From a virus, in IMG/VR virus record IMGVR_UViG_3300021142_000014, positions 1-64,000 of that record: a DNA stretch of 64,000 nt; one strand, given 5' to 3'. The position numbers and the translations under genes were made by a program. The notes beneath the pieces are model-generated. The model was not told the DNA's origin, did not search any database, and worked only from the letters and a program-made list of their open reading frames with translations. Position 1 is the first letter of the stretch; each line of letters starts with the position of its first letter. Shown here piece after piece: positions 4,779 through 15,201 of this stretch.

Positions 4779-5510
4779 ATGTCAGAATTCAACGTAACCA
4801 CAACCAACGAGATCATGTCGGAGGAGGATGTAGCTAAACTGTTACACGACTCTTTCTACGTATTCTCGGAGGAGACTGTAGCAGAACACGAGATGCTCGT
4901 GGATGCTGTGCAGATCTTGACTCTAGCAGGTAAAATGCTAGACCAAGTCGCTGCAGCTGCAATTAGTCAGGCTAAGTCAGAGAACAACTACGGCGTAGGT
5001 CGTGTGTTCGATGTCTTTACCACTGACCAATTGAAGTACGGTCGTCACGTAGTTGCAGCTGTTATGGCTCTTACGCCAACAACAGTTGTGACCCGTGCTA
5101 TGTCATACGCTGGTAAGTACAGTAAGTCCCGTCCGCAGATCATGATCAACTCTGAGATCAAGATTGACGGTAGAGGACATAAGTACTACGAGTACATGCG
5201 TAGCTACCACTACGTGACATCCAATGTTCACAGTCCATGGGATGCGTTTAACACCAAGAACGGTGCCAAGCGTACACACAAGTTGTTCATTGCCGGTGAC
5301 CAGAAGTTCTACACCGTCAAGAACGGCAAGCGTGTTGCGGTTGCACTCGGTGCTCCAAGTGAATATGACAAGGAGATCAATGCAGCCCACTCCAGTGGTG
5401 CAGTTACACAATACACACAGGCTCTTAATGAGATCCCACAGGACCTTATCGAGACGCTGAGTGAGAATCAACAGCAGTTGTTCTTGGAAGCATTCAAGAG
5501 CATTAAGTAA
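4779..5510 (+). CDS. Hypothetical protein, 243 aa
   Basis: ATG behind AAGAGAAGGAAG. The N-terminal half is helical and acidic. The middle is basic and Tyr-rich (SYAGKYSKSRPQIMIN, YYEYMRSYHYV), and the C-terminus is Gln/Leu-rich. Codon use here is more GC-rich and C-ending (GTACGGTCGTCAC) than in the AT-rich small genes downstream, which may mark high expression or a different origin. No family was recognised. Confidence 0.7.
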   Translation: MSEFNVTTTNEIMSEEDVAKLLHDSFYVFSEETVAEHEMLVDAVQILTLAGKMLDQVAAAAISQAKSENNYGVGRVFDVFTTDQLKYGRHVVAAVMALTPTTVVTRAMSYAGKYSKSRPQIMINSEIKIDGRGHKYYEYMRSYHYVTSNVHSPWDAFNTKNGAKRTHKLFIAGDQKFYTVKNGKRVAVALGAPSEYDKEINAAHSSGAVTQYTQALNEIPQDLIETLSENQQQLFLEAFKSIK

Positions 5511-5551
5511 TACCCGCAGTAAGACCTGAGGTATGTCTATAAACTGCCTCA

Positions 5552-5625
5552 CCACCCCCCCTGGGGGATACCTTATAGGTGTATTAGGTTCGATTCCTAA
5601 TGGGGTGGGCCATGTCGTGAGACAT
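5552..5625 (+). ncRNA. tRNA-like element ending GCCA, plus GTGA hairpin
   Basis: A 7-bp closing stem CCACCCC (5552-5558) pairs with GGGGTGG (5602-5608), followed by G and CCA (5609-5612) as in a tRNA 3' end. Inside is an ACCT/AGGT stem and an exact T-arm: ATTAGG, loop TTCGATT, CCTAAT (5583-5601). There is no canonical anticodon arm. The hairpin ATGTC-GTGA-GACAT (5612-5625) overlaps its last base. A site for host RNase P or Z is the obvious inference. Confidence 0.6.
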
Positions 5626-7861: not shown

Positions 7862-7909
7862 GGTATCCCCGATGGTCGTAATTCAGGTTCGACTCCTGAT
7901 TGGGGAGCC
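7862..7909 (+). ncRNA. tRNA acceptor/T-arm minihelix-like leader element
   Basis: Starts 4 nt after the upstream stop. TCCCC (7866-7870) pairs with GGGGA (7902-7906). Between them are GATGGTCGTA and a canonical T-arm: 5-bp stem TCAGG/CCTGA with the 7-nt loop TTCGACT. The same GATGGTCGTA plus TTCGACT arrangement occurs at 15142-15186. Two further short hairpins (AGCAC-AAAA-GTGCT and GTAGA-GCAA-TCTAC) follow. Confidence 0.6.
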
Positions 7910-7980
7910 GGAGCACAAAAGTGCTGCCCTGGTAGAGCAATCTACTAAAAATAAATAAACAAGAAGAAAGTAAGAAAAAC

Positions 7981-10355: not shown

Positions 10356-10733
10356 ATGGAAGAGTTTAATCTCGACTTGATGCTTGACGAAGCAGCAAAT
10401 GCACGTATTGCCCACGCTGATTACCTTAATCGGGTTAAAGATTGGGGTGTTGAAATGGGGCAAATCATGGAGCCATTCACTTCAGTTGCCATGATCCTTA
10501 TGGATGATGACAGGGATGAGGATGATTTTAATCTTATGTGCAGAATGTTTCCTTTAGGACTTCAATTAGCCGTTGATAAGTTAAATGAATTCTATGAAAC
10601 AATGCAGAGTGAAGCAATAAAAGTCCTTGGTGCACCATTTCAACTTCATGATCAACACCATCCTTTGTGTGGAGAAAATGATAATAAATGTGGACACCAA
10701 GATCACTACATGCCCAAGCAAGAAGACGAGTAA
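10356..10733 (+). CDS. Hypothetical protein with C-terminal HHPLC..CGH motif
   Basis: 125 aa behind GCAAGGAGTAAGTAG. The body is helical and acidic and resembles 11888-12220 in layout, starting with an acidic (L)LDE segment and having GxPF near the C-terminus. The last 25 residues contain DQHHPLCGENDNKCGH, nearly identical to a motif in the MNWN-tagged protein at 1354-1887. The pattern of His and Cys suggests zinc binding. Function unknown. Confidence 0.7.
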   Translation: MEEFNLDLMLDEAANARIAHADYLNRVKDWGVEMGQIMEPFTSVAMILMDDDRDEDDFNLMCRMFPLGLQLAVDKLNEFYETMQSEAIKVLGAPFQLHDQHHPLCGENDNKCGHQDHYMPKQEDE

Positions 10734-10763: not shown

Positions 10764-11051
10764 ATGTCCAAAGAAACAAGACAAGCAATACTTGGAATGA
10801 AGAATTGCATTGCTCAAGAACAAGACATTGATCAGTTACGTGATGCAGCTTTTGGTGTTATTGAGCTGCTCACTGATGTTGATCGGTTAATTGAACAAGA
10901 AAAAGAGCAAAGTGGCAAAGTCATTCTACAACTTGTAGGTGTAATTGAAACTGCAAGTAAAGCTCTTGATCAAGCAGGTATTGAATTGTTTAATACTGAC
11001 ACAGTAAAAGAATTGGTAGATTTTGCCAATAAAGTTACTAAAGTTAATTAA
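10764..11051 (+). CDS. Small helical protein
   Basis: 95 aa behind AAGAAAGAAAGTAAGT. Almost entirely predicted helix with regular Leu/Ile spacing, probably a coiled coil or helical bundle; no Cys cluster beyond a single C15. Its layout is like 17047-17289 and 18568-18879. Function unknown. The long non-coding RNA region follows directly. Confidence 0.65.
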   Translation: MSKETRQAILGMKNCIAQEQDIDQLRDAAFGVIELLTDVDRLIEQEKEQSGKVILQLVGVIETASKALDQAGIELFNTDTVKELVDFANKVTKVN

Positions 11052-11054
11052 TCA

Positions 11055-11083
11055 TTGACATGAATGAAATGCTCTCATAAACT
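11055..11083 (+). promoter_or_regulatory. Sigma70-type promoter candidate for the large ncRNA
   Basis: Perfect -35 TTGACA at 11055-11060, 17-nt spacer, and -10 TAAACT at 11078-11083. It lies immediately upstream of the structured non-coding region and directly behind the stop of 10764-11051. Confidence 0.5.
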
Positions 11084-11860
11084 CTCTAAGACTCAGGTCT
11101 GTTGAGATGGGTTATGAAGAGTGCTTTTCCTTCTTGTTGTTGCATCTTCATAGCCCTTCTGGACAGGCCAGGGGGCTTTATTGATCTGTGAAAAAGCCAG
11201 CTATGTCAACCCGCCAGATTGGATGTTATATTAATCCAGAGTGCCTAGTTGCAAGTCTTGCATTTCACAAACCCAGCCTAAAGGGGAAGCTTAGGTAGGA
11301 AGTAACATCCTTAACAACACACTATGAGGTCTAGGCCACTGACCCAAAAAACGTGGCAATCCCATATAACTTTTATCGGTTATATGGGACCTAGTCACAT
11401 TATGGTACAAGACTTAAACGGTTCCATACGCTAGCATCGTACTGCAACCCACTATAAAGGGAAGTTTATAGAAGGTTTACCATTTCACCTAAATAATATA
11501 ATAAAGGGGCACATATGCCTAAAATATGTTGTGGGCTTACTACAATAAACGCGCCATACTTCTTGGTTGGTAGGTTAGGAACCAAGGTCGCTTTGAGCAT
11601 AGCGTCGGGAATAAAGCTCAACCTATACATGCTGTCATGGTGTGTATAGGTGCCAAGTCCTGAACAAGACTATACCACAGTTGCAGGTGTAAAAACTGTT
11701 CAAAACTCAGCATGTGGAGAAGCACATGTAGGTTAAATCACCTTAAGTATAACCTGTTGGTGGTATAGGTGAGCCAACTACCTTAGAGTGTGAAGGCAAC
11801 TCTGGTGTTGTGAGTGGATCCTTATCGAACTCTCCGTCCTGGGTATGACGTTAAAGTGCC
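11084..11860 (+). ncRNA. Large structured non-coding RNA, about 780 nt
   Basis: No ORF above about 60 codons, but dense pairing. GGGTTATGAAGA/TCTTCATAGCCC (11109-11120 with 11145-11156) is followed by GGCTTT/AAAGCC and by GGATGTTA with TAACATCC at long range. CTAGG/CCTAG encloses CCAC/GTGG and CCCATATAAC/GTTATATGGG. Others are CTATAAA/TTTATAG, CTTGGTT/AACCAAG, TTGAGC/GCTCAA, CCTATACA/TGTATAGG and CATGTG/CACATG. A motif TAAAGGG(G)AAGYTTA recurs twice. Size, complexity and phage context recall the large ornate RNAs GOLLD and ROOL, but I cannot assign a class without a covariance model. Confidence 0.65.
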
Positions 11861-11887
11861 CACTTAAATAATAAACAAGGAGTAAGT

Positions 11888-12220
11888 ATGGATGAGAAAG
11901 AATTCAATTCTTTACTCGATGAAGAAGTGTCTACACGTTTACATTACGGAGATTCTGTAGGTAAACTAAAGACAATATTCATGGATATGGCAACACCAAT
12001 CTTATGGCTGAAAGGTGCCAGTGAAAACTGGGAAGACCTTGATGAGGATTCTATGGTTGTTGTTGGTAAATCATTAGAAGAATTGGTTGAATATGTCCGT
12101 GCAACTATGAAAGAACTATTGGATGTAATTCAAGATAGTGCTACATATTTGTATGGCGAACCATTCAATGAAGAATCATTCCATGGAGCAAACTGTCAAT
12201 GTGACAGAGATCATAAGTAA
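11888..12220 (+). CDS. Hypothetical helical protein with Cys/His tail
   Basis: 110 aa behind AACAAGGAGTAAGT. It resembles 10356-10733 in layout: start MDEKEFNSLLDEE, helical acidic body, GEPF near the end, then a short tail ANCQCDRDHK with two Cys and a His. Probably a diverged paralogue with a reduced metal-binding tail. Function unknown. Confidence 0.65.
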   Translation: MDEKEFNSLLDEEVSTRLHYGDSVGKLKTIFMDMATPILWLKGASENWEDLDEDSMVVVGKSLEELVEYVRATMKELLDVIQDSATYLYGEPFNEESFHGANCQCDRDHK

Positions 12221-12870: not shown

Positions 12871-12876
12871 TAAATA

Positions 12877-12936
12877 ATCGATAACCCCGTGAGGGGTCTG
12901 TATGGGATGACCTCCATGCACTGATGAGATAGGTCA
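12877..12936 (+). ncRNA. Hammerhead ribozyme-like motif 1 (permuted, stem II open)
   Basis: Stem II is ATC (12877-12879) with GAT (12928-12930). The GAA strand reads GATA here. Stem III is ACCCC-GTGA-GGGGT. Predicted cleavage is after C12898. Stem I is TGTATGG/CCATGCA and the core CTGATGA is at 12921-12927. The stem I loop (TGACCT) pairs with AGGTCA just after stem II, a pseudoknot at the place where hammerheads make their loop I-loop II contact. The extra T in GATA departs from the consensus. Confidence 0.7.
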
Positions 12937-12952
12937 AATTAAGAAGGATAAT

Positions 12953-14263: not shown

Positions 14264-14270
14264 CTGAGCA

Positions 14271-14331
14271 ACCCCACCATGGTGGCTTGAGACAGTTCAA
14301 TTCTGTCTTGGGGTGCTACGTCGGGAGACGT
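14271..14331 (+). ncRNA. tRNA-like T-arm element plus GGGA hairpin
   Basis: Starts 8 nt after the upstream stop. ACCCCA (14271-14276) pairs with TGGGGT (14309-14314). Inside is a T-arm: AGACAG, loop TTCAATT, CTGTCT (14290-14308). The hairpin ACGTC-GGGA-GACGT (14318-14331) and the AACAAACAAG leader follow. Same grammar as 5552-5625 and 15142-15201. Confidence 0.6.
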
Positions 14332-15134: not shown

Positions 15135-15141
15135 TAAGGTA

Positions 15142-15201
15142 GCCTTGATGGTCGTAGAGTAGGTTCGACTCCTACTCAAGGCACTACGTCGGGATGACGT
15201 T
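15142..15201 (+). ncRNA. tRNA acceptor/T-arm minihelix-like element plus hairpin
   Basis: GCCTT (15142-15146) pairs with AAGGC (15178-15182). GATGGTCGTA follows the 5' strand. The T-arm is GAGTAGG, loop TTCGACT, CCTACTC (15157-15177). The hairpin ACGTC-GGGAT-GACGT (15186-15200) follows. It shares GATGGTCGTA and TTCGACT with 7862-7909. Confidence 0.65.

Follow-up and report, generated by a model that had tools for sequence, protein, structure and literature searches.

Few RNA classes of bacteria and phages are as large as the one described here. The closest of them, GOLLD and ROOL, are ornate non-coding RNAs that are carried by phages or prophages and often lie beside tRNAs (PMC12286853); GOLLD RNAs are often over 800 nt long. 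Other ORF-less RNAs made by phages, namely the abundant transcript of about 800 nt of phage ICP1 and the lncRNAs of phage K, were shown by RNA-seq (PMC7567579, PMC9241854). The RNA presented here was found in a stretch of 64,000 nucleotides (the window), which represents positions 1 to 64,000 of the virus record IMGVR_UViG_3300021142_000014 (99,713 bases as a whole). With it a new family of large modular RNAs (about 0.5-1.5 kb) is described for the first time, which joins these few classes. Its length, about 780 nt in the window and 0.5-1.5 kb across the relatives, and its viral source agree with what is described for GOLLD. In contrast to GOLLD and ROOL, the RNA contains GRGMAR modules that are gained and lost as a whole, and its 3' pseudoknot is also placed on mRNAs. 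In the window the tRNAs are 40 kb distant from it, and in the relative L004 it is adjoined by a tRNA-like fold seen by eye. With the ICP1 and phage K RNAs it has in common a similar size and an ORF-less gap, but theirs were seen by RNA-seq whereas the window RNA is known from sequence alone. No sequence relation to these lncRNAs was noticed and the ROOL model has no match in the ICP1 record, where loose matches to the pseudoknot pattern are present.

The RNA is placed between two ORFs (10764-11051 upstream and 11888-12220 downstream), with the following features of the locus:

11052-11887, plus strand: gene-free gap with the large RNA, 836 nt, homologues at the same syntenic place
about 11084-11862, plus strand: RNA body, about 780 nt, with an inferred 5' end
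11055-11083, plus strand: promoter-like TTGACA-N17-TAAACT, 10/12 match, unconserved
11877-11882, plus strand: AAGGAG, read from the sequence as Shine-Dalgarno-like, for the next gene (ATG at 11888)

The original prediction of about 780 nt free of genes has been confirmed, as the only ORF of at least 50 aa inside the gap is an antisense one of 54 aa (11466-11630), and no ORF is common to the homologous RNA regions that were compared. A 75-aa ORF of the relative L021 was rejected as coding on the grounds that it is missing in the close relative L008. Proteins encoded beside the RNA have no PHROG match. Two plus-strand ORFs (10356-10733 and 11888-12220), located either side of the RNA plus its upstream neighbour gene, resemble each other by eye in their similar length and cysteine/histidine-rich C-terminal ends. 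The gap sits 7-8 kb from the terminase gene, and the terminase of the record shares about 44% identity with its relatives in the Rhodococcus phages Finch and E3. A promoter of its own had also been ascribed to the RNA. The hexamer pair is present, however such sites are not enriched over shuffles (18 in the same stretch, 16.7 expected) and the pair is not conserved in relatives, which leaves an own promoter unsupported; the giant RNA is probably transcribed within the rightward operon.

It is very probable that this stretch represents a structured RNA family. The plus strand of the gap folds with a minimum free energy of -253.9 kcal/mol, compared with -215.1 +/- 7.3 in dinucleotide shuffles (z -5.3), the minus strand gives z -3.4 against such shuffles, and homologues range from -1.8 to -6.9. 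In RNAalifold, four close homologues yielded 112 predicted pairs, 20 of them with compensatory change and mostly in local hairpins. The expected richness in helices is thus real, and the covariation rests in local helices; the long-range pairs that had been announced are indeed predicted by folding, but they hardly vary among homologues and are without covariation. What was foreseen as a very large structured non-coding RNA of a lake phage is borne out by homologues with compensatory changes.

Relatives were sought from the terminase, which provided 23 loci in IMG/VR, while a search by the neighbouring small proteins found none and a double-motif DNA pattern gave no matches. By blastn and nhmmer the RNA was recognised at the syntenic place in L010/L017, L008, L021, L003, L018 and L004/L005, and the homologues of L006 and L019 were added by inspecting large gaps. 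The repeated hairpin had been recommended as a search handle and proved to be the best one, its pattern revealing L191/L194, L195 and L196. Altogether homologues are present at the same place in about 12 related metagenomic lake-phage contigs, and to date the family is known from a single clade of actinophage-like lake viruses. The upstream neighbour, where visible, is a small coiled-coil-like gene, and downstream follows a small gene of either of two types (a 110-aa type in the window, L010, L018 and L191; the other in L008, L021, L003, L004, L006 and L196). The RNA is shortest in L010 (about 540 nt) and longest in L004 (about 1.5 kb). As L010 equals the window's RNA minus a block of about 230 nt between two hexaloop hairpins, whole modules are gained and lost.

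The body is assembled from repeated modules, each with a 7-bp GRGMAR hexaloop hairpin, and its local elements in the window are:

11096-11169, plus strand: 5' hairpin with the conserved pyrimidine-rich loop GCTTTTCCTTCTTGTTGTTGC, double changes in the stem
11277-11295, plus strand: GRGMAR hexaloop hairpin 1, CCTAAAG GGGAAG CTTAGG, one bulged A
11335-11357, plus strand: hairpin GCCAC..GTGGC, loop holding ACCCAAAAAAC, recurring in the modules of relatives
11361-11388, plus strand: hairpin CCCATATAAC..GTTATATGGG, several double changes
11452-11471, plus strand: GRGMAR hexaloop hairpin 2, CTATAAA GGGAAG TTTATAG
11473-11704, plus strand: module present in the window and missing in L010/L017, L008 and L021, with related modules in L003, L004, L191 and L196
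11562-11586, plus strand: hairpin CTTGGTT..AACCAAG, replaced by CCTAGTT..AACTAGG in L003, L004, L191 and L196
11622-11650, plus strand: recurring module hairpin CCTATACA..TGTATAGG
11710-11729, plus strand: GRGMAR hexaloop hairpin 3, GCATGTG GAGAAG CACATGT

The hallmark of a module is CTCANC-(7-bp stem)-GRGMAR-(stem)-NAGG. Of 25 GRGMAR loops in the seven homologous regions with which the examination began, 20 are carried by a perfect 7-bp stem, whereas elsewhere in the window 3/198 such loops have a stem of at least 5 bp. When 17 distinct hexaloop hairpins were aligned, all 119 cells were paired and each of the seven pairs displayed double changes, with a covariation of 0.767 versus 0.288 shuffled (0/500). 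The motif TAAAGGG(G)AAGYTTA, said to be repeated inside hairpins, occurs twice in the window's RNA and the third hairpin is a loop variant, GAGAAG. The loop GCTTTTCCTTCTTGTTGTTGC of the 5' hairpin was also noticed in 5 more contig stretches. A role of the GGGAAG loops as a CsrA sponge was rejected in view of the variants GAGCAG and GAGCAA, which are without GGA, and a kissing interaction between the hexaloops and the pyrimidine loop at the 5' end was rejected since L004 and L018 have no such 5' hairpin. The modules of this new large RNA family can be compared, cut and swapped.

No Rfam 15 family reaches the gathering score over the region, whether GOLLD, ROOL or another large-RNA model. The ROOL model (RF03087) matched 0/14 and 0/4 related records, with pMP118 as positive control (130.4 bits). 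The GOLLD model (RF02032), which covers the conserved 3' region, gave no match in the window or relatives; as a control in 99 genomes of one genus was likewise without match, this negative is weaker than that of ROOL. The comparison with GOLLD and ROOL drawn from the letters thus holds in kind and not in membership by their models. Weak Rfam matches (E up to 10) were eukaryotic microRNA models on the long 5' hairpin only, and a microRNA identity was rejected.

The original prediction passed over the modular make-up of the family and its 3' end, which is an independent, phage-wide pseudoknot. Two copies of this class are located in the window:

11835-11862, plus strand: 3'-terminal H-type pseudoknot of the giant RNA, 28 nt, CGTC-C-TGGGTA-T-GACG-TTAAAG-TGCCCA
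11835-11838 with 11847-11850, plus strand: its stem S1, CGTC/GACG
11840-11845 with 11857-11862, plus strand: its stem S2, TGGGTA/TGCCCA (loop TTAAAG)
5522-5550, plus strand: second pseudoknot, AGAC-C-TGAGGTA-T-GTCT-ATAAAC-TGCCTC(A), 11 nt past the stop of ORF 4779-5510 and directly preceding a tRNA-like minihelix

The copy of the giant RNA has AAAG in place of the nearly universal AAAC. IMG/VR was scanned with the pattern CCTGGGTATGN{2,12}AAANTGCCC, which contains no S1, and at least 120 stretches, at least 106 of them distinct, were obtained. Among the matches listed, S1 is paired at position 1 in 108/108 and at position 2 in 105/108, with all four Watson-Crick types, and S2 covaries once the letters of the pattern are relaxed (GGG/CCC, GAG/CTC, GCC/GGC, GAC/GTC). 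Covariation on 66 aligned pseudoknots was 0.492 versus 0.164 shuffled and 0.05-0.10 in slid controls; these 66 were chosen for at least 2 S1 and at least 5 S2 pairs, hence the unselected S1 count is the cleaner proof. Among homologues of the giant RNA, the closing C-G pair is swapped to G-C in L191, and S2 of one homologous module reads TGGGTA/TGCCC in L018, TGGGACA/TGTCCC in L006 and TGGACA/TGTCC in L019. The 3' element is therefore an H-type pseudoknot with both crossing stems kept by compensatory change. U-G pairs occur in S2 of 49/66 copies and would read A-C on the opposite strand, which means that the strand given here is the active one, as RNA. L003 and L196 each contain a stack of several pseudoknots. 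An alternative element, the nested hairpin with bulge TGGGCTCCACCCGAACGTCCAACGGGCCCA, replaces the pseudoknot in the same modules at the 3' ends of L006 and L019 and internally in L196.

The pseudoknot, small and covarying on both stems, is found in cultivated phages of Mycobacterium, Arthrobacter, Corynebacterium and Lactobacillus. Named carriers, from widely differing hosts, are Trina, Count, phi673, MTATph1, D6E and a microvirus, and for the GAG/CTC variant Labelle, Molivia, phiEF-1.1, ParKuw1, ParMal1 and a crAss-like phage. All counts are lower bounds, and many copies come from related phages, hence they are not independent events. Cellular genomes (257 Gb), scanned with a slightly stricter pattern, provided 35 matches, about 20 of them in agreement with the full descriptor. 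The element is absent from Rfam 15, and no relevant open-access paper was found on its sequence or on pseudoknots that follow stop codons in phages. STAXI (RF01728, PMC2864571), which also comprises small tandem pseudoknots in phage-related places, is characterised by UUCG loops and a location near genes for DNA handling, whereas the phage pseudoknot is found mostly as single copies after stop codons; the STAXI model has no Rfam match in the window.

Among the matches listed, 67 of 97 intergenic copies are flanked on both sides by genes of the same strand as the pseudoknot, the nearest upstream gene is on the pseudoknot's strand in 84/95, and 11 copies lie between convergent genes. Copies with a same-strand upstream gene start 4-7 nt past its stop codon in 43 of 84 listed cases, and an annotated CDS ends at this distance in Trina, Count, Labelle, Molivia, ClubPenguin, ParMal1 and Vibrio 1.238. 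Many copies are also 18-40 nt before the next start codon, but that distance is broad whereas the distance from the stop is sharply peaked. In 15 of the 143 copies listed the first base of a same-strand tRNA is 3-7 nt downstream, whereas none of these copies has a tRNA ending within 40 nt upstream. In L004 about 3 nt separate the last pseudoknot variant of the giant RNA from a downstream tRNA-like fold, recognised by eye and with no Rfam match. Genes preceding the pseudoknot encode, by PHROG match, major head protein, Hsp20 and an endolysin-like peptidase, and in Molivia an annotated single-strand DNA binding protein. A role in stop-codon readthrough was rejected, the in-frame opening having a median of about 7 codons and an immediate second stop being present in 9/70.

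Well-formed pseudoknots in cellular contigs were observed in Omnitrophota, Deltaproteobacteria, Saccharibacteria, Lachnospiraceae, an archaeon and others (L153, L157, L161, L163, L164, L166-L169, L172, L174-L177, L179, L181, L185, L186). In the L. salivarius megaplasmid pMP118 (NC_007930, 189296-189315, minus strand) a pseudoknot-like element CCTGAGTAAG..AAACT occurs just before the scaffold gene of a prophage-like region, the same place as in D6E and phiEF-1.1, and the same region also encodes ROOL. In several phage contigs conserved non-coding stretches are located directly upstream of the pseudoknot, CTGCCACACGCC..CTACAAACAGAGTGGCTTGAG (L045, L131, L134) and CAGATCCNTATGGTCTGTTCGAGTGCTGCT (L042, L092, L098, L114, L122), which may represent further small RNAs that end in this cap.

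The helicase site of the ribosome is about 5-6 nt past the A-site codon, hence a pseudoknot closer to the stop would be unwound whenever a ribosome terminates; the observed spacing is about the smallest that avoids this. We infer that the same compact pseudoknot ends phage mRNAs and the giant RNA, where it would block 3'-to-5' exonucleases and in this way set and protect RNA ends; after an RNase P cut at a downstream tRNA the mRNA would end in the pseudoknot, and the giant RNA would be the non-coding case, a long-lived RNA ended by the cap. It is judged probable that we deal with a family of large, stable structural RNAs ended by a pseudoknot which caps RNA 3' ends, the judgement covering the statement up to the cap; the capping role itself, as read from the anatomy, is given a chance slightly above even. 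The widespread placement suggests a shared way to protect phage RNA ends, and it makes a sharp prediction on how phage mRNAs get their 3' ends. More tentatively, at somewhat below an even chance, the pseudoknot may be a previously undescribed phage-wide end cap, placed by phages of unrelated hosts between stop codon and RNase P site and exonuclease-proof after the cut, and one lake-phage clade would have combined this cap with repeated hexaloop modules into a new class of giant non-coding RNA. The repeated hexaloop hairpins may suggest multivalent binding or self-assembly, by analogy with ROOL and GOLLD cages (PMC12286853), and a scaffold or multivalent docking platform during infection is the likeliest role of the giant RNA, although a speculative one at well below an even chance.

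The main rival for the pseudoknot assumes that it acts in the opposite direction, like coremin, an Xrn1-resistant RNA of plant viruses (PMC10520033), stopping a 5'-to-3' exonuclease (RNase J in the host) and shielding the next gene, with the giant RNA as a long 5' leader containing several stops. Both elements are small 3'-UTR folds, and the commonest phage form, CGUCC(UGGGUAU)GACGUUAAACUGCCC, has GUCC...GACGUUAAACU in common with coremin GUCCGAAGACGUUAAACUAC; the many copies 18-40 nt ahead of a start codon and the stacks in L003 and L196 are also consistent with such stops. We consider it unlikely, though, as it is the upstream stop to which the distance is sharply peaked, a tRNA that needs no 5' protection comes next in 15 of the copies listed, 11 are placed between convergent genes, and the GUC/GAC and GUU letters in common with coremin vary freely across the class. 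Coremin, moreover, is known from RNA viruses and consists of hp1 with a YGAD or YGNNAD loop, a spacer and a necessary second hairpin, whereas the element of DNA phages of bacteria is an H-type pseudoknot whose 8-nt loop, C-UNNNYA-N, is paired in a covarying 6-bp S2, and no conserved second hairpin was seen.

Capping of 3' ends remains the preferred reading of the pseudoknot, and for the giant RNA the alternatives are weaker still. A cis-acting leader (riboswitch-like) or an operon spacer that controls the gene at 11888 would suit the position of the RNA, which separates the small coiled-coil gene from a small gene downstream, and the Shine-Dalgarno sequence just past the pseudoknot; it is quite improbable given that the downstream gene is of two types among relatives and that the length varies threefold by whole modules. 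GOLLD or ROOL diverged beyond the reach of the models would share the size range, the occurrence in phages, the lake water and the lack of ORFs, and the tRNA-like fold adjoining the RNA in L004 recalls some GOLLD RNAs (PMC12286853). Against this very doubtful relationship, neither model matches any related phage, nor the window at E up to 10, although ROOL is detected in pMP118, and hexaloop modules and an mRNA-type pseudoknot are absent from the GOLLD and ROOL descriptions consulted. Hardly any weight can be given to decayed genes or to a function of the DNA itself, as replication origin or packaging signal. Hairpins repeated within non-coding DNA 7-8 kb from the terminase gene would speak for such a reading, but the G-U pairs are conserved on one strand only and the nearest gene upstream of the pseudoknot is nearly always on its own strand among the matches listed (84/95), and decay, which the original prediction regarded as a refuting case, disagrees with relatives that keep the same RNA with compensatory changes and no genes.

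Other RNA elements were also observed in the window:

12876-12938, plus strand: hammerhead type II-like ribozyme (RF02276), 31.1 bits, cut-off 37
about 5552-5612, 7862-7910, 14268-14318 and 15135-15185, plus strand: tRNA-like minihelices just past gene stops

The hammerhead-like element fills an 82-nt gap between two ORFs, 5 nt past the stop, and its GAAA core reads GAUAA, by which this copy may be inactive; one to four such copies occur in several relatives, with two above the cut-off in G008. The minihelices, none of which is called by ARAGORN, consist of an acceptor-like stem and a T-arm (GGTTCGANTCC or GTTCAAT) with no anticodon arm, in some followed by CTACGTCGGGANGACGTTA. The first of them, directly after the second pseudoknot, ends in GGGGTGG-G-CCA, and it is possible that the minihelices are RNase P sites between genes.
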